A stretch of 64,000 nt of DNA from Pseudomonas bijieensis (lineage in GTDB: Bacteria; Pseudomonadota; Gammaproteobacteria; Pseudomonadales; Pseudomonadaceae), in NCBI RefSeq assembly GCF_013347965.1, contig NZ_CP048810.1, positions 5,083,501 through 5,147,500 on the forward strand. The letters are read 5' to 3'. Numbering within the stretch: position 1 is the first letter of the stretch; every line of letters begins with the position of its first letter. Shown piece by piece: positions 4,560 through 55,874 of the stretch. The notes under the pieces were generated by a model, which saw only the letters and a program-made list of their open reading frames with translations, did not search any database and was not told where the DNA came from. Position numbers and translations under genes: made by a program.

Positions 4560-5429
4560 ATGAGCCACGTGTTGGAAGATCTGGTCGACCTGCTGACCCT
4601 GGAACCGATCGAAGAGAACCTGTTTCGCGGTCGCAGCCAGGACCTGGGGTTCCGTCAGTTGTTCGGTGGCCAGGTGCTGGGTCAGTCGTTGTCGGCGGCC
4701 AGCCAGACCGTGGAGGAGGCGCGTCATGTGCACTCAATGCACGGTTATTTCCTGCGTCCGGGTGATGCCGCACTGCCGGTGGTCTACCAGGTGGACCGGG
4801 TGCGTGATGGCGGCAGTTTCAGCACCCGCCGGGTGACGGCGATCCAGAAGGGCAACCCGATTTTCACCTGCAGTGCGTCGTTCCAGTATGACGAACAGGG
4901 CTTTGAGCACCAGAGCAGCATGCCGCAAGTCGTCGGGCCGGAGAACCTGCCGTCCGAGTTGGAGCTGACCCAGCAGCGCGCGCACCTGTTGCCTGAGCAC
5001 ATGCGCGAAAAACTGCTGTGCCCCATGCCGATCGAGGTGCGCCCGGTCACCGAAAAAGACCCTTACAACCCGCAACCGGCCGATCCGATCAAGTACGTGT
5101 GGTTCCGCGCCGATGGCGCCCTGGCCGATTCGCCAGCGTTGCACAAATACCTGCTGGCCTACGCCTCGGACTTCGGCCTGTTGACCACTTCGCTGCTGCC
5201 CCACGGCAAATCGGTGTGGCACAAGGATATGCAGGTCGCCAGCCTCGACCACGCCTTGTGGTTCCACGCCGACCTGCGCGCCGATGACTGGTTGCTCTAC
5301 GCGATGGACAGCCCGTGGGCTGGCAATTCCCGCGGGTTTTCCCGTGGCAGCGTGTTCAATCGCGCCGGGCAACTGGTGGCCTCGGTGACCCAGGAAGGCT
5401 TGATCCGCCATCGCAAGGACTGGGCATGA
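4560..5429 (+). CDS. tesB: Acyl-CoA thioesterase II
   Basis: 289-aa double-hotdog thioesterase hydrolysing medium and long-chain acyl-CoA to free fatty acid and CoA. The first hotdog opens with FRGRSQDLGFRQLFGGQVLGQ and contains the HSMHGYFLRPGD strand. The second contains AYASDFGLLTTSLLPHG and ends in SVTQEGLIRHR, which supply the Asp and Gln of the TesB Asp-Thr/Ser-Gln active site. A clear GAGGAAA ribosome-binding site precedes the ATG. The stop overlaps the start of the HAD phosphatase by 4 nt (ATGA), so the two genes are translationally coupled. Confidence 0.95.
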   Translation: MSHVLEDLVDLLTLEPIEENLFRGRSQDLGFRQLFGGQVLGQSLSAASQTVEEARHVHSMHGYFLRPGDAALPVVYQVDRVRDGGSFSTRRVTAIQKGNPIFTCSASFQYDEQGFEHQSSMPQVVGPENLPSELELTQQRAHLLPEHMREKLLCPMPIEVRPVTEKDPYNPQPADPIKYVWFRADGALADSPALHKYLLAYASDFGLLTTSLLPHGKSVWHKDMQVASLDHALWFHADLRADDWLLYAMDSPWAGNSRGFSRGSVFNRAGQLVASVTQEGLIRHRKDWA

Positions 5430-45142: not shown

Positions 45143-48100
45143 TCAGTCGAGCATGAACAACGCATCATTGCTGAACTGCGCTTCAAACCGGTTGGCCGGC
45201 ATCGGCCGACCGAACAGGTAGCCCTGGACTTCGTCGCAGCCGTGTTCGCGCAAAAAGTCCAATTGCTCGTGGGTCTCGACCCCTTCGGCGATTACCGCCA
45301 GGTTGAGGCTGTGGGCCATGGCGATGATCGCCCGGGCGATCTGTGCATCCTGCTCGCCGGACGGCAGGCCGTCGACAAACGTGCGGTCGATCTTCAGCAC
45401 GTCGATGGGGAATTGCTTGAGGTAATTGAGCGAGGAATAACCGGTGCCGAAGTCATCCACGGCGATGCTCAGTCCCAGGTTTTTCAAGCCGGCCAGAATC
45501 TGCATCGCCTCGCTGACTTCGCGCATCAGGATACTTTCGGTCAGTTCCAGCTCCAGGCAGGCCGGCGGCAGGCCGGTGCTGCGCAGGATATTGGCGATGC
45601 GCGTGCCCAATTGGCCGTCGGAGAACTGCCGGGCGGAAATGTTGACCGAGACCTTTGGCACCCGGACCTTGGCCTGGTGCCACGTCCTGAGCTGCCGACA
45701 GGCTTCGGTGATGACCCAGTCGCCGACGTCCACTACCAGCCCGAGTTCTTCGAGTACCGGGATGAAGTCTCCCGGCGGCACCAGGCCGCGACGTGGATGG
45801 CGCCAGCGCAGCAGCGCTTCGGCGCCGGTCAAACGTTTGCCATCGCCGCTGAACTGCGGCTGGTAGTACAACACGAACTCGTTCTGTTCCAGGGCGTGGC
45901 GCAAATCGCTTTCCAGTTCCAGGCGCTCCAGGGCGCTGGCGTTCATGTCGGCCTGATAGAACTGGAAGTTGTTCTTGCCGCGTTCCTTGGCGTGGTACAT
46001 GGCCGTGTCGGCGTTTTTCATCAACTGGCTCAGTTCACTGCCATCCTGGGGACTCAGGGCGATGCCGATACTGGCGGTGACGAAGAACTCCCGGCCTTCG
46101 AGCACGAATGGCCGGACCAGGCTGGCGAGGATCTGCTCGGCCACGGTAATGGCCCGGTTCAGCGCCATTTCGCGGCTGGCGCGCGGCTGCAGCAACAGGG
46201 TGAATTCGTCGCCGCCCATGCGCGCCACGGTATCGTCGTCGGCGACACAACCGAGCAGGCGCGTGGCCATTTCCTTGAGCATCCGGTCACCGGCGGCGTG
46301 ACCCAGGGAGTCGTTGATGGGCTTGAAGCGGTCCAGGTCGAGGAACATCAGCACCACCCAGGTCTTCTGCCGCTCGGCCGATTGCAGCGCGGTGTGCAGG
46401 CGATCCTGGAACAGCGTGCGGTTGGGTAGGTGAGTCAGGGCGTCGTAATAGGCCAGGCGATGAATGCGTTGCTCGCTGGCCTTGCGTTCGCTGATGTCGC
46501 TGAAAAAACACACATAGCTGGCCAGGTCGCCTTCGTCATCGAGCACGGCGGTGATGCCGACCCAGGCCGGGTAATGCTCGCCATTGCGACGCTTGAGCCA
46601 GACTTCGCCTTCCCAGGTGCTGTGCTGTTGCAGTTGCTTGAGCACGTAGCGCAGGTGGGCTTCCTGCTGCTCGTCCACGGTCAGCATGTTGGGCAACTGG
46701 TCCAGCACTTGCGACACGGCATAACCGCTGACGCGACTGAAGGCTTCGTTGGCCTGGACAATGTAGCCCGCCGGGTCGGTGATCAGGATTGCCGAAGTCG
46801 AATGCTCGAATACCGTGGCGGCCATGCGCAGGTCTTTTTCGGCGCGACGCTGCTGGCTGATGTCGCGGCCGACGCCGAGCACGCCTTCGAACGCGCCGCT
46901 TTCATCCCACACCAGCACCAGCCGCAACTCGATGGGGATCTTGCGCCCGTCGGCACGCAGGCAGTCGAACAGGAACAGCTGGGTCTGCATCTGGTTGCGC
47001 AGCTCGGCCAGTTGTTCGGGCTTGTCGAGGGCCTTGCTGACCCGGTCCATCAGGCTGTAGATGCCGGTCAGTTGTTGCGGATTGGCGATGATCGATTGCC
47101 AGCCGTTCTGGAAAATCCAGTCGGCGGTGTAGCCCAGCACCGCTTGCACCGACGGGCTGACATAGTTGAGCGAAAGCTTGTTGTCGGTGGAGAAGATCAC
47201 GTCGCTGATGCTTTCGGCGAGCATCCGGTAGCGTTGCTCGCTGTCGCGCAGCGATTCGCTGGCCTCGATCTGCTCTGTGACGTCCTTGGCCACGCCGATG
47301 ATGCGTGTCACCTGGTCGTGCCGGTCCCGGGCCAGGGCCTGTTCACGGATGTCGAAGCAGCGCCATCTGCCATTGCGATGACGAAAGCGCAGCTGGCATT
47401 GCAACAGTTGCGTGTACCCGCCCCGGCGCTGTTCCTGGCGCAGGTTGTGGTAGTGATCGGCGTCTTCGCTGTGCAGCAGGATTTCCCAGAAGTACTCGCC
47501 CATCTGGTGCAGTTCGGTGCGGTCGTATCCCAGGGTCTGGCCCAGGTGATGGTTGCTGAAGATCATCCGCTGGCTGATGACGTCCTGCACATAGAGATGA
47601 TCCGGCACGGTGCGCACCACGTCGGACCAGAAACCCTCGCGTTCGAGCAGCGAGAGTTCGATCAGCTTGCGGCTGGTGATGTCACTGATGCTCAGGATGA
47701 CCGCGTTGTAGTCGTGCTGTTTTTCCGGCAGGCGCAAGACCAGCCACAGGTGCTGGTCGCGGCCATGGGCGTCCTGGAGCTTGATTTCCAGTTCCAGTTG
47801 CTTGTGTTGGTCGAGCAGTGCTTCGAGCAGCTTCGAACCAACGGGGTTGTGTTCCTGCGCACCCTTGCCGACCAGCAGTTGCCAGGCCTGGTCGCAGGAG
47901 TCGACGTTGAGCAGTTTCAACGCCATCTGGTTGACTTCGGTGACGTGAACTTCCTGGCGCAATTGTTCGAGTTGATGAGAGGTTTTCATCCAGGCGCGCA
48001 GTTGATCGCCATTGTGCAGGCCGGCCCGCTCAAAAAAGGCCTTGAGCCCCGACAGGTCGAGCACACACAGGGCTACGCCGGTGCCTTCGAAAATGTCCTG

Positions 48101-48991
48101 GTAGCGCCGCCGACCTTCATGCAACTGTCGCTGCCGCCGGCGCATGTTCAACAGCGCGATCACTGGCAACAACGAAAACGCCAGGCCCAGCAGGCATTTG
48201 CCGATGAAGGCCGGCAGCAGTTGCTCGAGCACCTGGCGACGGTCGAACAGCCCCCGCAACTGCCAGTCGCTGCTGCTCAGGGGGATGGTCAGTACGGTGT
48301 TCTCCAGGTCATCCGGCGACAAATGGGTAGGGCTGCTCGAGGGCAGGCTTTCGTCGCGGCTGATGATCTGCTGGTTGAGACGGTTTTCCACCAGCCACAG
48401 CGGGCGCAGCCCCACATCGGCCTGCTTGGTCAGGGTCGAGAAAAAGCTCGGCGTCAGGCGCAGGGCCCAGTAGCCACGGCTGCTACCGCTGGCCTGGTGC
48501 AGCAATAGATGCACCACGGAGCCGTCTTCGGCATTGCTGAAATAATGTGCCTGGGCCCGGCTACGTCGCACCAGCTCACCCAGGTAATCGGCGTCGTGAC
48601 TGCCGGCGTCGCTGTCACTGAGCACTCGGCCGGAGGGGCTCAGCAGTGCCAGGCTGCGCAATTCAGGGAGCGATTGCTGGAGTTTGCGAACCAGGGCCCG
48701 CTGTTCGTCGGCTGTTTGTGGTTGTTCGACGATCGGTAGCAGGTTAAGGGCGATTTGCGCGTTCAGGGCCATGTTCAGGCTGACCTGCGCGGCGAGATCG
48801 GCGGTGTAGTCGATGGTGTATTGGCGTTGTTGCTGCTGGGTTTCGCGCAGTTGGTCGAGCAATTGCCAGAACAGCAACCCGAGCAATAGCAGCACGAGGG
48901 TGGCCAGCGCGCCCTTCAATGTCCCGCGCAGGGGCGAGCCAGGCACGACAGCGGGTGCGCGAGGGGACAGGGGCGGCGTGACGTTGGACAA
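45143..48991 (-). CDS. morA: Membrane PAS-GGDEF-EAL cyclic di-GMP enzyme, MorA
   Basis: 1282-aa bifunctional c-di-GMP regulator of motility and biofilm. A transmembrane segment at about residues 27-47, a periplasmic sensor region, and a second membrane segment at about 262-287 are followed by several PAS domains (roughly 300-850), a diguanylate cyclase domain with intact GGDEF at 926-930 and a phosphodiesterase domain with intact EAL at 1058-1060 ([11 protein letters not shown]), plus DDFGTGYSS and KIDRTFV. Both catalytic halves look active. Gene order glyA-morA supports the name. Confidence 0.9.
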
Positions 48992-49262: not shown

Positions 49263-50927
49263 ATGGCTCAATACGTCTTCACCATGCATCGGCTGAGCAA
49301 AGTTGTTCCGCCGAAGCGGGAAATCCTGAAAAACATTTCACTGTCCTTCTTCCCCGGCGCCAAGATCGGCGTACTGGGCCTCAACGGCTCGGGTAAATCC
49401 ACGCTGCTGAAAATCATGGCCGGCGTCGATAACGAATTCGACGGCGAAGCCCGGCCAATGCCGGACCTGAATATCGGTTACCTGCCGCAGGAACCTCAGT
49501 TGGACCCGAGCAAGACCGTTCGCGAAGTGGTCGAGGAAGCGGTCAGTGTGATCAAGGACGCCCAGGCGCGCCTCGACGAGGTCTATGCCGCCTACGCCGA
49601 CCCGGATGCCGACTTCGACAAGCTGGCCGCCGAACAGGCCAAGCTCGAAGCGATCCTGCAGGCCAGCGACGGCCACAACCTGGACCGCCAGCTGGAAGTC
49701 GCCGCCGATGCGCTGCGCCTGCCGGCCTGGGACGCGAAGGTCGAGCACTTGTCCGGCGGTGAGAAGCGCCGCGTGGCCTTGTGCCGCCTGCTCCTGTCGG
49801 CTCCGGACATGCTGCTGCTCGACGAACCAACCAACCACCTGGACGCCGATTCCGTCGCCTGGCTCGAACACTTCCTGCACGACTTCCCAGGTACCGTGGT
49901 CGCGATCACGCACGACCGTTACTTCCTGGACAACGTCGCCGGCTGGATCCTGGAGCTCGACCGTGGTGCAGGCATTCCGTATGAGGGCAATTATTCGGGC
50001 TGGCTGGAAGCCAAGTCCGATCGTCTGGCCCAGGAATCCAAGCAGCAGTCGGCCCATGAAAAAGCCATGAAGGAAGAACTGGAATGGGTGCGCAAAGGCG
50101 CCAAGGCCCGTCAGTCCAAATCCAAGGCACGCCTGCAACGCTTCGAGGAAATGCAGTCCCAGGAATTCCAGAAGCGCAGCGAAACCAACGAGATCTATAT
50201 CCCGGCCGGTCCGCGCCTGGGTGACAAGGTCATCGAGTTCAAGAACGTCACCAAGGGCTATGGCGATCGCGTGCTGATCGACAACCTGTCGTTCTCCATG
50301 CCCAAAGGCGCCATCGTCGGTGTGATCGGTGGTAACGGTGCGGGTAAATCCACGCTGTTCCGCATGTTGATGGGCAAGGAAACCCCGGATTCGGGCAGCA
50401 TCGAAATCGGTGAAACCGTGCAACTGGCCTGCGTCGACCAGAGCCGCGAAGACCTGGACGGCAGCAAGACCGTGTTCCAGCAGATCTCCGACGGCTCCGA
50501 CCAGATCCGTATCGGCAACTATGAAATCCCGTCGCGCACTTATGTGGGCCGCTTCAACTTCAAGGGCGGCGACCAGCAGAAGTTCGTCAAGGACCTGTCC
50601 GGTGGTGAGCGTGGTCGCTTGCACCTGGCGCTGACCCTGAAGGAGGGCGGTAACGTCCTGCTGCTCGACGAACCGTCCAACGACCTCGACGTCGAAACCC
50701 TGCGTTCCCTGGAAGAAGCCCTGCTGGACTTCCCGGGCGCCGCCATTGTGATCTCCCACGATCGGTGGTTCCTCGACCGCGTGGCGACTCACATCCTGGC
50801 GTACGAAGACGACTCGCAAGCGGTGTTCTTCGAAGGCAACTACACCGAGTACGAAGCCGATCGCAAGAAGCGCCTTGGCGAAGCGGCTGCCCAGCCGCAT
50901 CGCGTACGGCACAAGAAACTGGCCTGA
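49263..50927 (+). CDS. ettA: Energy-dependent translational throttle protein (ABC-F)
   Basis: 554-aa ABC-F ATPase that binds the ribosomal E site and gates translation according to energy state. Two ATP-binding cassettes: Walker A GLNGSGKSTLLK and GGNGAGKSTLF, signatures LSGGEKRR and LSGGERGR, and Walker B segments LLLDEPTNHLD and LLLDEPSNDLD. The arm/linker region (about 100-300) is present. The ATG at 49263 begins MAQYVFTMHRLSKVVPP as in EttA; the upstream open frame is not coding. Confidence 0.95.
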   Translation: MAQYVFTMHRLSKVVPPKREILKNISLSFFPGAKIGVLGLNGSGKSTLLKIMAGVDNEFDGEARPMPDLNIGYLPQEPQLDPSKTVREVVEEAVSVIKDAQARLDEVYAAYADPDADFDKLAAEQAKLEAILQASDGHNLDRQLEVAADALRLPAWDAKVEHLSGGEKRRVALCRLLLSAPDMLLLDEPTNHLDADSVAWLEHFLHDFPGTVVAITHDRYFLDNVAGWILELDRGAGIPYEGNYSGWLEAKSDRLAQESKQQSAHEKAMKEELEWVRKGAKARQSKSKARLQRFEEMQSQEFQKRSETNEIYIPAGPRLGDKVIEFKNVTKGYGDRVLIDNLSFSMPKGAIVGVIGGNGAGKSTLFRMLMGKETPDSGSIEIGETVQLACVDQSREDLDGSKTVFQQISDGSDQIRIGNYEIPSRTYVGRFNFKGGDQQKFVKDLSGGERGRLHLALTLKEGGNVLLLDEPSNDLDVETLRSLEEALLDFPGAAIVISHDRWFLDRVATHILAYEDDSQAVFFEGNYTEYEADRKKRLGEAAAQPHRVRHKKLA

Positions 50928-50998: not shown

Positions 50999-51088
50999 TG
51001 TGGGAGCGGGCTTGCTCGCGAAGGCGTCGGATCAGCAAGCATTGTGGTTGACTGACCCAGCGCTTTCGCGAGCAAGCCCGCTCCCACA
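50999..51088. repeat. REP inverted pair after lanM
   Basis: TGTGGGAGCGGGCTTGCTCG plus CGAAGGCG at 50999 and its inverted partner ending CCACA at 51088, between the convergent ettA and lanM. Probably limits read-through into either gene. Confidence 0.92.
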
Positions 51089-51104: not shown

Positions 51105-54100
51105 TTATCCCGTGGACTGCTTCGCAAAATCGAGCGAAAGAATATTCGGAAGGGTCGGATCCATCTCGTACAGCAAGGCATAGCCTGCACCGGTTATTCC
51201 AGTCAACAGACTGACATCGGGCACCCGATCGCTGTCGAGATAGGGCCCTTCGAAAAACTGCCGGGAGACATCCTCAAGTGCTTTTCTGACTCTGCTGATG
51301 CCCTCAGGATTATCCGAGTGCCGATACAGGTCATACAGGCAGAGCAGATTGCCAAAATCGCCATGACAAAGGTTGTAGCCATCGCCAAACCCGTGTTGCC
51401 AGAGATTGTTTTCGCACCGCTGTATATCGTCGAGCACTGTCTGCCGGGTCGCTTCGTCCAGGGCGTCCCCCATCGACTCCATGAGCTGTCGCCTGGCGAT
51501 GAGGATACCGCCGTCGCCGTGGCACCATTTGGACGCATGGTCCAGCGGCCCGAGGTTGCGCAGGTCCAGCCAGAAACCATCCCGACTCAAGCGGTTTTCT
51601 CCCTCGAGCACCTGGACGGCCAGGGGCACCAGGGTCACGTCGCCGGTCACCTCATAGGCTTTGCACAATGCATGGATGACACCCGAGAGGCCGTGGGACA
51701 AGCCTGTCAAAATGACGGAGCGCTCATCACGTCGCAGAAGCTGGCCGTCTTCAATCAGGATTTGGCTCTTTATGTAGTCGACCATGCGTTGGATCGCCGG
51801 CCGCACATCCTCTTGCGCAGAGAGTGCATGGATATTGGCCAGCAGTGTCACAGCACCACAACAACCGCCCAGGAAGTCGAAATCATAGTCTTCAGGAGGC
51901 ACTTCAATCAGTTGGGTCAGCAGGCCAGCAATTTTCTCATCATGCCTGGCGTCCCCAGTGATCTGGCGACGATTGATGAGCAGATAGAGGTAAGCCCCCA
52001 GTCCGTGATACGCGCTGACAGTCAAATCGGTTTTGAAAAAGCCGAAGCGTTGTTCCAGTGAGTCCAGGACCTGATCCATGCGTGACAGAAAGTGTGGTTT
52101 GCCGCTCACCTTGAACAGGCTCAGATAAAACAGGCCAATCCCGGCGATACCGGAGTACAGCCCGTGATCCATTGGCGACGGATATTTTCTCTGAGTCGTG
52201 GGGTGTGTATGGAAAGACAGCCAGCTTACATCCTCTACTGCGCCCACTATTGCGAGTTCCTCGAGGCGGGTGCTGATCCTCAGGATCGCGTCGAGGGGCT
52301 CCTTTTCAAGGTTCGCCAGGGGCTGCTCGATACGCGATGGAAGATGTCCATTCTGTTCTGGGAACAAACAGATTTCGAGCAAGGTGCGTTGCAAGGCCCA
52401 GTCTTTGCGAGACAGGTTGGCTATTTTCTGTAGGCAGCTTTCTAGCGGGGGCTCCACGGCTGCCATCGGTATTGTTTCACCCTGTGCGCTCGTAAAATAG
52501 TTGGCGTTCAGCGGCATGGTAAAGCACGGAATGCTGGACCTTTGCAGGTCGGCTATTTCATAGCGGGGAATGCCCTTTTCCCGATAGGGTTCTTTCAAAT
52601 CCTTCCACAAGGTCGCGAGCAGAAGTTCTCTGTCGAGCATGTTTTGCATGAAGCGTGGGTGGCGGATCAGCCCGATGAAATCAGCGTAGCGCTGAGAGTT
52701 TTTCAGCAACACCCGGGTCGACAGTTCGCCTGCGGCTTGTTCAAGCCTTTGCATGATCGCGTGCCGATGAACCATGAGTCTGCCATAGGCATATTCAAAG
52801 CCTTGGAGAAGCTCTGCTTTATAAGCTTCGGGCCCCTTGCGCTCACCCTGCAAAAGAGGCAGGTGTTTTTGCGTCAGGTGGTGTTCGAATTCAACTTTAC
52901 GCAGATGGTAAAAGCCACTGTCGAAAATCAGGGAATTGCGGGTCGAGATGAATAGAGCTTGCCGGGTCAGACCGCTTTGGTCGTTTTTGGACTGTTGTGA
53001 AAAGGGTACGAAGCCGCTGGAACATATCGACCGCTGGACCAATTTAAAGCTATTGGACAGTGCGCAGCCAGCGGGAAGGTCAGTGAGCAGGTCGCTGGTG
53101 GAGGCCGTGAACAAACACTCGAGGTCAATCATGACCGGACTGTTGCCGCACGCGATAATGTTTTCGTAGTGAAAGTCGATCCCATTCAACGCATGGATGA
53201 TGGCTATTTGTGCCCCCAATTTTTCATAGAACAGTCCAACCTCCGCTTCGCTGTCACAAGGCAGGTTGTCGATTTTTTCTACCCAGCTATGTCGCTCGCG
53301 GCTGAGGATCCTTGGGGTGTGGATGGAAAAACAATCCGCACCTGTCCACTCATGCAATTGTCCAAGAAGACGATAGAAAAAAATCGCCTCCCGGTTTGCT
53401 CTTGGCTTGTAGACCAATGAAGTCGTGCTGATTTTGACTTGGCAAACCGTTTCGCCGCGACCATGGGGGTCACCCAGGCCAAGCTCGATAGCCTCGATTT
53501 TCCGGGATGGGATCGAAAATTCCCGCTCCAGCGCTTCCGCATCGTCGGCGAAGTTGTGAATGACTGCATAAAGGTAATGGAGGGTGTCTTCCAGCAGGTC
53601 AAACAGCAGTGTCGCCAGCACTGGGTAGGATTCGAAGAATTTCAGCAGCGGCAATGTGTGCAGATGCTCATTGAATCCGTTCAGGTCAATGTCATCACCG
53701 TTCGCAATTCGTGTATTCAAATAATGGACCAGGCTTTGTTCTGCCGTGCGTCCAACCCGGGCCAGGACATAGCGTTCAAGGCTTGCAAACAAAGCGGGTT
53801 CATCAATGTGCGTTGACGCATTCAAATAGCGCTCATCGGCCTTGAAGGTGTCGACGAAATAAAGAAAAAAACGATAGCTGAACCAATAAAAATTATCCGT
53901 GCCGCCTGAGCTTTCTTTTTCAATGCTAATGCTATCGAGGCGAGCAAGTTTATCCTTGAGGGTGTTCAAGGCGGTTTCGCCATCGGCGGGCAAGCACTGC
54001 TGGTTGATAGGCTCCTTGATATAAGATACCAGTTGTTCCCTGTTCAACCCAAAGTGATTCAGCAAGGTTTGGTCGTCAGCATGCAGACGGGTCAGGTTGT

Positions 54101-54179
54101 TTTCAAAAAGGGCGATGTCGCCTTCGGAAGAACCTCTGTGCTTCCCTCGCTGATCCAACTTCAAAGCGTTAACAAGCAT
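51105..54179 (-). CDS. lanM: Class II lanthipeptide synthetase LanM
   Basis: 1024-aa bifunctional enzyme that dehydrates Ser/Thr of a precursor peptide and adds Cys thiols to form (methyl)lanthionine rings. The N-terminal dehydratase (DUF4135) has LVYKPR (Y257-R260), the kinase-like FHYEN (H337...N340) and IDLECLF (D352). The C-terminal LanC cyclase has zinc ligands C886 in WCHGDGG and C938-H939 in LCHGDFG, with the Gly-rich GLYSGIAGIGLF, GLSHGLSGV and LTGITGAGYALL repeats. AGGAG stands before the ATG. Two precursor genes lie immediately upstream in the same direction. Composition is AT-richer than neighbouring core genes, suggesting horizontal acquisition. No LanT, LanP, immunity or regulator is adjacent. 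Confidence 0.95.
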   Translation of the reverse strand: MLVNALKLDQRGKHRGSSEGDIALFENNLTRLHADDQTLLNHFGLNREQLVSYIKEPINQQCLPADGETALNTLKDKLARLDSISIEKESSGGTDNFYWFSYRFFLYFVDTFKADERYLNASTHIDEPALFASLERYVLARVGRTAEQSLVHYLNTRIANGDDIDLNGFNEHLHTLPLLKFFESYPVLATLLFDLLEDTLHYLYAVIHNFADDAEALEREFSIPSRKIEAIELGLGDPHGRGETVCQVKISTTSLVYKPRANREAIFFYRLLGQLHEWTGADCFSIHTPRILSRERHSWVEKIDNLPCDSEAEVGLFYEKLGAQIAIIHALNGIDFHYENIIACGNSPVMIDLECLFTASTSDLLTDLPAGCALSNSFKLVQRSICSSGFVPFSQQSKNDQSGLTRQALFISTRNSLIFDSGFYHLRKVEFEHHLTQKHLPLLQGERKGPEAYKAELLQGFEYAYGRLMVHRHAIMQRLEQAAGELSTRVLLKNSQRYADFIGLIRHPRFMQNMLDRELLLATLWKDLKEPYREKGIPRYEIADLQRSSIPCFTMPLNANYFTSAQGETIPMAAVEPPLESCLQKIANLSRKDWALQRTLLEICLFPEQNGHLPSRIEQPLANLEKEPLDAILRISTRLEELAIVGAVEDVSWLSFHTHPTTQRKYPSPMDHGLYSGIAGIGLFYLSLFKVSGKPHFLSRMDQVLDSLEQRFGFFKTDLTVSAYHGLGAYLYLLINRRQITGDARHDEKIAGLLTQLIEVPPEDYDFDFLGGCCGAVTLLANIHALSAQEDVRPAIQRMVDYIKSQILIEDGQLLRRDERSVILTGLSHGLSGVIHALCKAYEVTGDVTLVPLAVQVLEGENRLSRDGFWLDLRNLGPLDHASKWCHGDGGILIARRQLMESMGDALDEATRQTVLDDIQRCENNLWQHGFGDGYNLCHGDFGNLLCLYDLYRHSDNPEGISRVRKALEDVSRQFFEGPYLDSDRVPDVSLLTGITGAGYALLYEMDPTLPNILSLDFAKQSTG

Positions 54180-54198
54180 GCCGTAGCTCCTGGCATGG

Positions 54199-54223
54199 AT
54201 AGAGCAGGCGATGCCTGCTCTAT
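54199..54223 (-). promoter_or_regulatory. Perfect stem-loop between precursor gene and lanM
   Basis: ATAGAGCAGGC - GAT - GCCTGCTCTAT, an 11-bp perfect stem with a 3-nt loop, in the 84-bp gap between lanA1 and lanM. No T-run follows, so it is better read as an mRNA processing or attenuation structure that keeps precursor mRNA in excess over synthetase mRNA. Confidence 0.65.
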
Positions 54224-54263
54224 GTTTATAAGTGTTGCCTGTGTGATGATTGGTTAACTGGGG

Positions 54264-54422
54264 TTAACACATGATTGTCGAGCATTCGAGGTTGGTGCAC
54301 GTTCCAAAAGTATTGCATTCCATCGTGGTTGCCAGCATTCCCCCAATGTTGTTGGCGGGCGCTTGGTAAGCGTCGAATTCGAGATGGAAGTCGCCGGACA
54401 TGTTCAGGATTTTTTCGCTCAT
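54264..54422 (-). CDS. lanA1: Lanthipeptide precursor peptide 1
   Basis: 52-aa peptide. The leader starts MSEKILNMSGDFHLEFDAYQ and runs to a double-glycine site (NNIGG, G27-G28). The C-terminal core from residue 29 includes TTMECNTFGTCTNLECSTIM and ends in C52. Cys are C36, C42, C47 and C52 with Thr/Ser placed a few residues before each, so up to four (methyl)lanthionine rings are possible. GAGGAAAT lies 4-11 nt before the ATG. The leader start is shared with the second precursor 161 bp upstream, and lanM follows 84 bp downstream. Confidence 0.88.
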   Translation of the reverse strand: MSEKILNMSGDFHLEFDAYQAPANNIGGMLATTMECNTFGTCTNLECSTIMC

Positions 54423-54582
54423 GGTATTTCCTCATCAATTATTAAACATCACGTACAGTAATCTGCGGTCAATCGGAGCCGATCAGTGCGCCCGAACTGT
54501 AGGATGTGAAATGAAGTTTTTTATGAATGGGATTAGGGATGTTAAAAGTCGTGTTGCATGGACGACTTTGAAAGGGTGGGAT

Positions 54583-54726
54583 TTAGCACAAAAGAGCGGT
54601 GCACCCTATGGTGCCGCACTCGACAATGGTCAGCGCTGCTGACTCAATGCCAAGACTGTTAACTTGTCGGTAGGACATGAAGTCACCGTCGAAGTCACCT
54701 GACATTGCCAGTATTTGTTCGCTCAT
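54583..54726 (-). CDS. lanA2: Lanthipeptide precursor peptide 2
   Basis: 47-aa peptide. The leader starts MSEQILAMSGDFDGDFMSYR; the likely cleavage is around ESA (residues 28-30). The core ALTIVECGTIGCTALLC (31-47) contains exactly three Thr (33, 39, 43) and three Cys (37, 42, 47), each Thr preceding a Cys, which suggests three methyllanthionine rings and no spare residues. The LTI-ECGT order resembles actagardine-type class II lantibiotics. AGGAG precedes the ATG. It is the first gene of the lan unit. Confidence 0.87.
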   Translation of the reverse strand: MSEQILAMSGDFDGDFMSYRQVNSLGIESAALTIVECGTIGCTALLC

Positions 54727-54774
54727 TATGTTTCTCCTCTTTTGTTGTTATGCACCTGTTGGGGTGCGGGAAAA

Positions 54775-54803
54775 ACAGTAGCATGCTCCTGATTTGACAC
54801 CAA
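54775..54803 (-). promoter_or_regulatory. Candidate sigma-70 promoter of the lan operon
   Basis: On the minus strand TTGGTG (54803-54798) and TACTGT (54780-54775) are 17 bp apart, about 50 bp upstream of the lanA2 start. Moderate matches only. Confidence 0.35.
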
Positions 54804-54828
54804 CTTGTCGTTATGACCTTATGTTGCG

Positions 54829-54854
54829 GTTACATGTTGCTACAGGCATGTAAC
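54829..54854. promoter_or_regulatory. Inverted repeat upstream of the lan promoter
   Basis: Perfect 8-bp arms GTTACATG (54829-54836) and CATGTAAC (54847-54854) with a 10-bp spacer, lying just upstream of the candidate promoter. Symmetry and size suit a dimeric activator site; the protein is unknown. Confidence 0.45.
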
Positions 54855-54955: not shown

Positions 54956-55447
54956 TTAATCAAGCTCTATCGCAATGATTTCAATGGCGAGATTCCCCAC
55001 CGGTCGCTCCCAGATCACCTCATCCCCGACCTTCGCTCCCAGTAACGCTCGCCCCAGCGGCGAGCCCCAGTTGATCAGTCCGCTGGCCGCATCGGCCTGG
55101 TCTTCACCGACCAGTTGCACCCGCTGTTCATGATCATGCTCGTCGACGAAGGTCACCCAATGTCCGATCCGCACCTGATCCATTGATGTCGGTACAACGA
55201 CCTGCGCACTCTGCAAACGCTGGTTGAAGTAGCGCAGGTCGCGTTCAATGTCGGCGATGCGTTGTTTGTCTGCTTGATCGCCTTTGGCCGCGTGTTGGCC
55301 ATGTAGCGCTTGTAACTGGGCGACGCGGGCCTGCAACTGGGCAAGTCCCGAAGGGGTCACGTAGTTGGGTTGCGCACTGACCTGGCGTTCGACCGGCTGG
55401 TCGGCCTGGGCTGCGGCGTTGTCTTCGTTGACGAAAGCGCGACTCAT
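54956..55447 (-). CDS. GreA/GreB-family transcription elongation factor
   Basis: 163-aa protein. The N-terminal part contains the start of a coiled coil (YVTPSGLAQLQARVAQLQALH, then RIADIERDLRYFNQRLQSAQ), the C-terminal part an FKBP-like Gre domain (GHWVTFVDEHDHEQRVQLVG, INWGSPLGRALLGAKVGDEV). The N-terminal region before the coil is longer and less conserved than in GreA. It may help restart stalled RNA polymerase. GAGGAG before the ATG. Confidence 0.85.
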   Translation of the reverse strand: MSRAFVNEDNAAAQADQPVERQVSAQPNYVTPSGLAQLQARVAQLQALHGQHAAKGDQADKQRIADIERDLRYFNQRLQSAQVVVPTSMDQVRIGHWVTFVDEHDHEQRVQLVGEDQADAASGLINWGSPLGRALLGAKVGDEVIWERPVGNLAIEIIAIELD

Positions 55448-55517
55448 GGTGTTCTCCTCTATTGGAGTTTGGGCCATGGTCGCAGGGTTTTGGTTTCGAT
55501 GAATGTCTGTACGCGAC

Positions 55518-55874
55518 TCACTGCGAGCGATAAGCCCGGGCGGCGTCTTGGTCTTTCTGTTGCTGCCAGGCCCGTTCACGTTCGTCCCAATGGCGTTCGC
55601 GATAGGCATTACGCTCTTCGCTCTCGCGCATGGCCTGGCACTGACGGAAACCATCGCTCCAGCCTTCGGCGTAGCGCGGGTCCTTGAGGTAGCGCGGTAC
55701 GTCTTTCCTGAACTGGCCGGTGATCACTCCCGCCGCTTGCCGGCCACTGCTGCAACCATCGTCGTAGCCGTCGGCGAACGCAGGTGGATAACCCCGGGCG
55801 ATCAAGTCTTCGTGGGTGGTTTCACAGCCACCGAGCAACATCAACATACCCAGGACCACTGCCACACGCTTCAT
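55518..55874 (-). CDS. Small lipoprotein, unknown function
   Basis: 118-aa predicted lipoprotein: MKRVAVVLGMLMLLGGC has a lipobox LGGC ending in the lipidated Cys at residue 17. The mature part has two Cys (DGCSSG, RQCQAM), a central GWSDGFRQCQ and a charged Gln/Arg-rich C-terminus (ERERAWQQQKDQDAARAY). Two starts are possible (55874 and 55901); the first gives a standard signal peptide. Confidence 0.78.
   Translation of the reverse strand: MKRVAVVLGMLMLLGGCETTHEDLIARGYPPAFADGYDDGCSSGRQAAGVITGQFRKDVPRYLKDPRYAEGWSDGFRQCQAMRESEERNAYRERHWDERERAWQQQKDQDAARAYRSQ

Follow-up and report, generated by a model that had tools for sequence, protein, structure and literature searches.

The window analysed here, a stretch of 64,000 nucleotides from the complete genome of the plant-associated Pseudomonas bijieensis (6,730,360 bp), contains three adjoining genes on the minus strand, which had been predicted from the sequence to form a class II lanthipeptide locus. 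In the order of transcription these are lanA1 (54583-54726), encoding a precursor of 47 amino acids, lanA2 (54264-54422), encoding a precursor of 52 amino acids, and lanM (51105-54179), encoding a bifunctional class II lanthipeptide synthetase of 1024 amino acids. The precursor genes were defined by open reading frame (ORF), alignment, selection and core pattern, the synthetase gene by Pfam and TIGR profiles and alignment. A purine-rich Shine-Dalgarno-like stretch, read from the minus strand, precedes the ATG of all three genes alike (54734-54739 for lanA1, 54428-54433 for lanA2 and 54187-54191 for lanM). All of these elements lie where the original prediction had placed them, and the profile scores of LanM together with the adjoining precursors and their Ser/Thr/Cys cores confirm the assignment to class II. 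The genes flanking the system, named correctly beforehand and identified by profile matches, encode a GreA/GreB-type factor (54956-55447, minus strand) and an EttA-like ABC-F protein (49263-50927, plus strand, start approximate). As expected, no LanT, immunity or regulator gene adjoins lanA1-lanA2-lanM.

LanM is the sole protein of the genome with a DUF4135 match and reaches 262 bits with PF13575, 178 bits with PF05147 and 557 bits with TIGR03897 (cut-off 304). The dehydratase domain extends over residues ~185-555, the LanC cyclase domain over residues ~668-1013. CylM and LicM2 served as alignment references for locating the catalytic residues, with roles as given in the accessible text of PMC4550811, and conservation of these residues was evaluated in 86 sequences, comprising the LanM of the window and 85 of its 90 best database matches (five with less than 900 amino acids were excluded). 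D237, H239, K258, D335, H337, N340, D352, R489 and the zinc ligand C886 are invariant in all 86 sequences, and C938 and H939 are kept in 85, with one gap each. Altogether, 11 of the 13 positions checked match CylM and are, gaps aside, invariant across the family; the position of CylM R510 is occupied by Lys in 84 of the 86 enzymes. With kinase, lyase and zinc-site residues present, LanM looks active. A full-length enzyme with intact dehydratase and zinc residues had been predicted, and Ser495, which is considered below, is the only small departure from this description.

The precursors have the leader motif M..(I/L)..(M/L)SG(D/E)F...F..Y in common. Three units are predicted in the core of LanA1 (T33-C37, T39-C42, T43-C47) and four in the core of LanA2 (T32/T33-C36, T38-C42, T43-C47, S48/T49-C52), the pairing of residues being putative in both. 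This tandem Ser/Thr-to-Cys pattern recurs in 88 of 92 distinct precursors, with three units in 62, four units in 26 and neither in four. Shuffled cores matched it 10 times in 18,400, a figure which describes the regularity of the cores and is not an independent test, the pattern having been derived from the same 92 sequences. The products of lanA1 and lanA2 gave no Pfam match (none for a Nif11/NHLP leader up to E=1) and no credible NCBIfam match. A likeness between the core of LanA1 and lantibiotics of the actagardine type was considered and dropped, as no family model matched.

Distribution of the family and number of products

Within a survey of 398 evenly drawn Pseudomonas genomes, some LanM match was detected in 23, of which 18 belong to the present LanM family and five show an identity of 22-29% only. 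The latter (G006, G105, G168, G203 and G385) harbor distant LanM-like proteins without family precursors and represent other kinds of lanthipeptide loci. The 18 family genomes fall into clade A with 12 genomes (75-100% identity, one LanM in pieces), clade B with five (42-45%) and clade C with one (41%). An independent search with a precursor alignment found precursors in 18 of the 398 genomes, exactly those 18 that carry a family LanM. The family is therefore uncommon in Pseudomonas, in agreement with the original prediction. In a collection of named genomes, patterns deduced from the LanM of the window identified 18 loci, all of them from Pseudomonas, and 144 relatives that were searched contained no further family genome. 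Among the best 120 of 188 matches in the protein database, LanM identity is ~40% for proteins of Pseudomonas and for unnamed metagenomic sequences and drops to 26% for Bacillus. Database matches of the precursors with a stated organism derive from Pseudomonas and are annotated as hypothetical.

One to three precursors lie upstream of lanM in all 36 family loci, a set in which some genomes are represented twice and one has a broken lanM. Pooled Nei-Gojobori ratios of nonsynonymous to synonymous substitution (dN/dS) were 0.20 for lanA1 (14 sequences, copy of genome G388 excluded), 0.13 for lanA2 (core 0.08; 11 sequences, excluding L006-L008, the second L003 copy and the G388 copy) and 0.16 for lanM (14 sequences), which indicates purifying selection on each of the genes. 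Erosion of the small frames in relatives, named beforehand as a finding that would speak against the locus, was looked for by these ratios and was not observed apart from the one genome with a broken lanM. In this genome, G388 (locus L086), lanM is split into three open pieces, LanA2 looks intact and LanA1 lacks one core Cys that all 35 rows of the LanA1 alignment contain (G388 not among them). The precursor cluster P0178 (15 contigs) shows the same loss of the core Cys. Small ORFs are readily over-called and the lack of profile matches to the precursors would be compatible with chance frames beside a LanM that modifies something else. This explanation is contradicted by the co-occurrence with LanM over the 398 genomes, by purifying selection and by the conserved Thr/Cys spacing, and can be regarded as practically refuted; for the same reasons lanA1 and lanA2 are real genes.

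For two different cores beside one synthetase, the original prediction offered either a two-component lantibiotic or one enzyme with two products. The existence of two real precursors was confirmed, the two-component reading was not. In such a lantibiotic LanA1 and LanA2 would act jointly, each being weak alone, and two precursors are indeed encoded in ten of the 12 clade A genomes and three in the remaining two (G340 and G313); class II clusters in general commonly contain two (39%). However, Pseudomonas frederiksbergensis SI8 (L036) carries, in its whole genome, a full LanA1 and only a leader-length fragment of 30 columns besides, and the whole genome of Pseudomonas citri (L039) encodes only LanA2. 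Only one precursor per locus is found in clade B (nine loci, retrieved by name) and in clade C (one locus). Furthermore, the copy number varies, as L003 harbors one LanA1 and two LanA2, and L011 has one more precursor downstream of lanM, composed of a LanA2-type leader, a three-unit core and a short tail (5101-5253, corresponding to 11601-11753 of L037 from the same genome). As either peptide can be retained without the other, a lantibiotic that depends on both components is unlikely, and the data agree better with one synthetase serving a changeable set of paralogous products.

Export and leader removal

The genome-wide search for a LanT/C39 exporter, which had been recommended with the original prediction, yielded FapD of the fap amyloid operon as the sole C39 match in the genome of P. 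bijieensis (NF058616, 434 bits versus a cut-off of 330; FapC and FapE adjoin), and an unlinked LanT is thereby ruled out in this genome. A FapD-sized C39 frame occurs in all 18 family genomes, those of the other 17 being assigned by size only. Weak C39 matches (21-31 bits) were obtained for 15 exporter-length frames in 14 family genomes; all of them are type I secretion ABC proteins scoring above the cut-off of TIGR03375, and a stronger match in G058 (77 bits) belongs to an HlyB-type protein above the cut-off of TIGR01846. C39-like domains of type I secretion ABC proteins are not known to cut peptides. A LanT-type peptidase-exporter was thus not found in 17 of the 18 family genomes. Only G209 encodes a protein resembling a true peptidase-exporter (C39 140 bits), located away from lanM, whose best model is TIGR03796 with 503 bits, below the cut-off of 853. 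In this genome (L083, 2403-2720 and 7357-9492) the C39 peptidase-exporter and a small Gly-rich frame lie a few kb apart, possibly as an unrelated double-glycine bacteriocin or microcin cluster.

Comparison of 19 neighborhoods revealed no recurrent exporter- or protease-like gene beside lanM; it was based on ORF clusters of at least 90 amino acids, antisense frames included, with sequences judged by reading. Nor do the precursors carry a conserved cleavage site of the double-glycine type: only 18 of 91 precursors have a GG at most 12 residues away from the first unit, and in no LanA1 row of the LanA1 alignment was a double glycine present. The exporter-less layout is the rule in all three sub-lineages and not the result of a broken cluster. 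An island without export genes, which the original prediction had called unusual, is thus no peculiarity of this strain and is characteristic of the family.

The missing export and immunity genes, together with the lower G+C content of lanA1, lanA2 and lanM (49-53% compared with 61% for the window), which suggests a foreign origin, might be taken as signs of a full cluster that has lost its transporter and immunity genes and is decaying. The fragmented lanM of G388, the LanA1 of this genome without the core Cys and the same Cys loss in the 15 contigs of P0178 point in the same direction. Against such a remnant speak the identical minimal layout in three lineages down to ~40% LanM identity, the dN/dS values of 0.13-0.20 and the invariant catalytic residues, and we consider it very improbable.

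A further explanation is that the modified peptides never leave the producer and act within it, e.g., as a regulator or as a stress or anti-phage effector. It would account for the exporter gap in 17 of 18 genomes, for the lack of both a conserved double-Gly site and an immunity gene beside the locus, and for the chromosomal position beside housekeeping genes in all three clades. On the other hand, a defense function found no support in a PADLOC match, and RiPPs (ribosomally synthesized and post-translationally modified peptides) with proteases or exporters encoded outside their cluster are known, according to the accessible text of PMC10885120. The genome of P. bijieensis contains three TldD/E-family matches and 15 matches to ABC-exporter membrane domains, which make a host route possible. 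An intracellular role is therefore conceivable, albeit doubtful.

Structural elements and genomic site

Within the gap between lanA2 and lanM, folding and conservation identified a perfect stem-loop (54200-54222, minus strand). The stretch of 101 nucleotides containing it folds with z = -4.8, and all 15 clade A rows show the element with an almost unchanged sequence. With up to two mismatches it occurs as a single copy in the genome, so that a repetitive element is ruled out. The same gap contains hairpins of unrelated sequence in all nine clade B loci and in the one clade C locus (no shuffle control), which points to a structural role. The stem-loop may stabilize the mRNA or terminate transcription partially and in this way set the ratio of precursor to enzyme.

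A second, small stem-loop (54752-54767, minus strand) in the presumed 5' leader of lanA1 was recognized by covariation. Changes on both sides were found in five of five pairs, 88.7% of cells are paired and 17 cells show double changes compared with at most three when the structure was slid; these values refer to 25 of 27 rows (L036 and L039 excluded) and to a structure named after viewing the alignment. The per-sequence shuffle test was weak, with 11 of 27 sequences at p<=0.05. Just before this stem-loop, conserved columns of 25 aligned loci define a putative extended -10 promoter element (TG, one base, then TA...T; 54775-54783, minus strand); a scan for promoters and terminators gave the same counts as in shuffled sequences. 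Upstream of the promoter region, a stretch at 54780-54841 is, judged by eye, well conserved in clade A (L003-L006, L010, L032-L035, L037 and L038), and in clade B another sequence is conserved about equally far upstream. Both are possible activator sites.

Clade A loci are inserted between the Gre-type gene and ettA. In a search of 149 genomes, the 30 loci that matched the Gre gene best comprised 14 in which ettA adjoins it, representing the empty site, two with lanM and 14 with neither. Clade B loci are located at the far end of the same ettA - GGDEF/EAL - glyA block, adjoining glyA or a few genes away, and the clade C locus lies elsewhere, next to genes encoding a branched-chain amino acid transporter and enzymes of the tricarboxylic acid cycle type. 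Without correction, distances between LanM proteins are roughly five times as large as for the neighboring GGDEF/EAL protein, and the correlation between the two is weak in clade A and absent in clade B, which makes a transfer of the locus within Pseudomonas possible. The GGDEF/EAL gene of the window (45143-48991) is a frame of 1282 amino acids with PAS-like, GGDEF and EAL-like domains by reading, and is present in all 19 neighborhoods compared. Between lanM and ettA lies a facing pair of REP-like palindromes (51000-51088), which we take to be of the BIME type; similar pairs occur at other sites of the window and, in relatives that lack lanM (L053-L055), between the Gre gene and ettA. For the Gre-type frame (54956-55654), a start at 55447 is likelier than the listed one at 55654, because many relatives align from residue 1 of the shorter form, often in frames that are little longer.

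Interpretation and comparison with known systems

Taken together, the locus very probably represents an intact member of a Pseudomonas family of class II lanthipeptide loci, in which one LanM gives rise to two paralogous, separately dispensable products that mature by unlinked host functions. LanM would bind the conserved short leader of each precursor, phosphorylate Ser/Thr residues of the core and then eliminate the phosphate to give dehydroalanine and dehydrobutyrine. The LanC domain would subsequently close (methyl)lanthionines, mostly from Thr/Ser to a Cys three or four residues downstream, leading to three consecutive rings in LanA1 and four in LanA2. The stem-loop between lanA2 and lanM probably holds expression of LanM below that of the precursors. 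As no LanT was found in the genome, removal of the leader and any export would be left to the host.

The closest characterized peptide appears to be LanII-23 of Pseudomonas ogarae, which, expressed in E. coli, received five dehydrations and four (methyl)lanthionines with all Cys in rings (PMC9576775, Nat Commun 2022, accessible text). P. ogarae and P. bijieensis are both placed in the P. corrugata subgroup (PMC8878242, accessible text), and LanII-23, likewise of class II, almost certainly belongs to the present family. With four Cys, all in rings, it would be of the LanA2 type, in which four rings are expected from four Cys. In the accessible main text it is mentioned twice, in neither case with bioactivity, a ring map, a partner peptide or an analysis of export (PMC9576775). 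LanII-23 and a peptide from Dyella are termed there the first characterized lanthipeptides of Gammaproteobacteria.

Several observations weigh against the interpretation given above. The assignment of LanII-23 is based on species kinship and the number of Cys, not on sequence, so that dehydration and ring closure have been demonstrated elsewhere for a peptide that almost certainly belongs to the family, and are predicted from the genes in P. bijieensis. Nuclear magnetic resonance of the Dyella peptide revealed overlapping rings (PMC9576775, accessible text), which renders non-overlapping rings in LanA1 and LanA2 uncertain. The Thr involved in phosphate elimination (T512 of CylM) is replaced by Ser495, although this exchange is common to 29 of the 86 enzymes, the other 57 having Thr. 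The count of 18 genomes with precursors derives from a search in which many genomes had 17 of 18-31 first-look candidates scored. G209 does possess an exporter of the peptidase type, and LanM distances do not track those of the neighboring gene in clade B, so that simple vertical descent is not clear.

Lanthipeptides of Gammaproteobacteria have barely been studied, the first two having been characterized in 2022 (PMC9576775, accessible text), and members of the P. corrugata subgroup are investigated as plant-protecting agents (PMC8878242, accessible text). The minimal system of two or three genes is experimentally easy and includes natural variants without one or the other peptide, which makes leader cutting and peptide export directly addressable. 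Of chief interest is that, across the family, the usual exporter-protease is missing and the peptides are not obligatorily paired. A more far-reaching proposal would be that the peptides of this exporter-less family, which is spread through part of the genus Pseudomonas, function within the Gram-negative cell that makes them, or exit by a host route so far not known for lanthipeptides, and that the family is kept for this function and not for antibiosis; we regard this as speculative, with rather low odds.

LicM2/CylM-type synthetases of Bacillota resemble the present LanM in architecture and catalytic residues, and among the best 120 of 188 matches its identity to LanMs from named genera other than Pseudomonas amounts to 26-27%. 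In canonical class II clusters of Bacillota, a C39 exporter is encoded and immunity genes are often present as well. The LanT-dependent type is not represented here, as neither a C39 exporter in cluster or genome nor a double-glycine-type site was found. Prochlorosin/ProcM-type systems, with one synthetase and several precursors, are similar in the multiplicity of precursors. They differ in that the present family has no Pfam Nif11/NHLP leader and far fewer precursors, located beside lanM in the genomes searched.

The Dyella LanII, whose orthologs were proposed as rhodanocins, is also a class II peptide of a gammaproteobacterium. AspN was used to cut it, as the C39 protease LahT150 failed to do so; unlike LanA1 and LanA2, it has a core of 23 residues and overlapping rings of other spacing (PMC9576775, accessible text). 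Clusters without a protease are also described for microcin B17, which depends on TldD/E, and for class III lanthipeptides with AplP-like enzymes (PMC10885120, accessible text); in contrast to these, the present family has not been linked to a host protease. Class II lanthipeptide clusters of Pseudomonas have been catalogued (PMC8719888, PMC8704066 and PMC11205049, accessible texts), and literature searches, covering mainly freely accessible papers, yielded nothing on LanA1, export or function of the family. The locus is thus not new in kind, as a probable relative from P. ogarae has already been expressed and modified. New are the distribution of the family, its exporter gap, the losses of paralogs and the two conserved hairpins.

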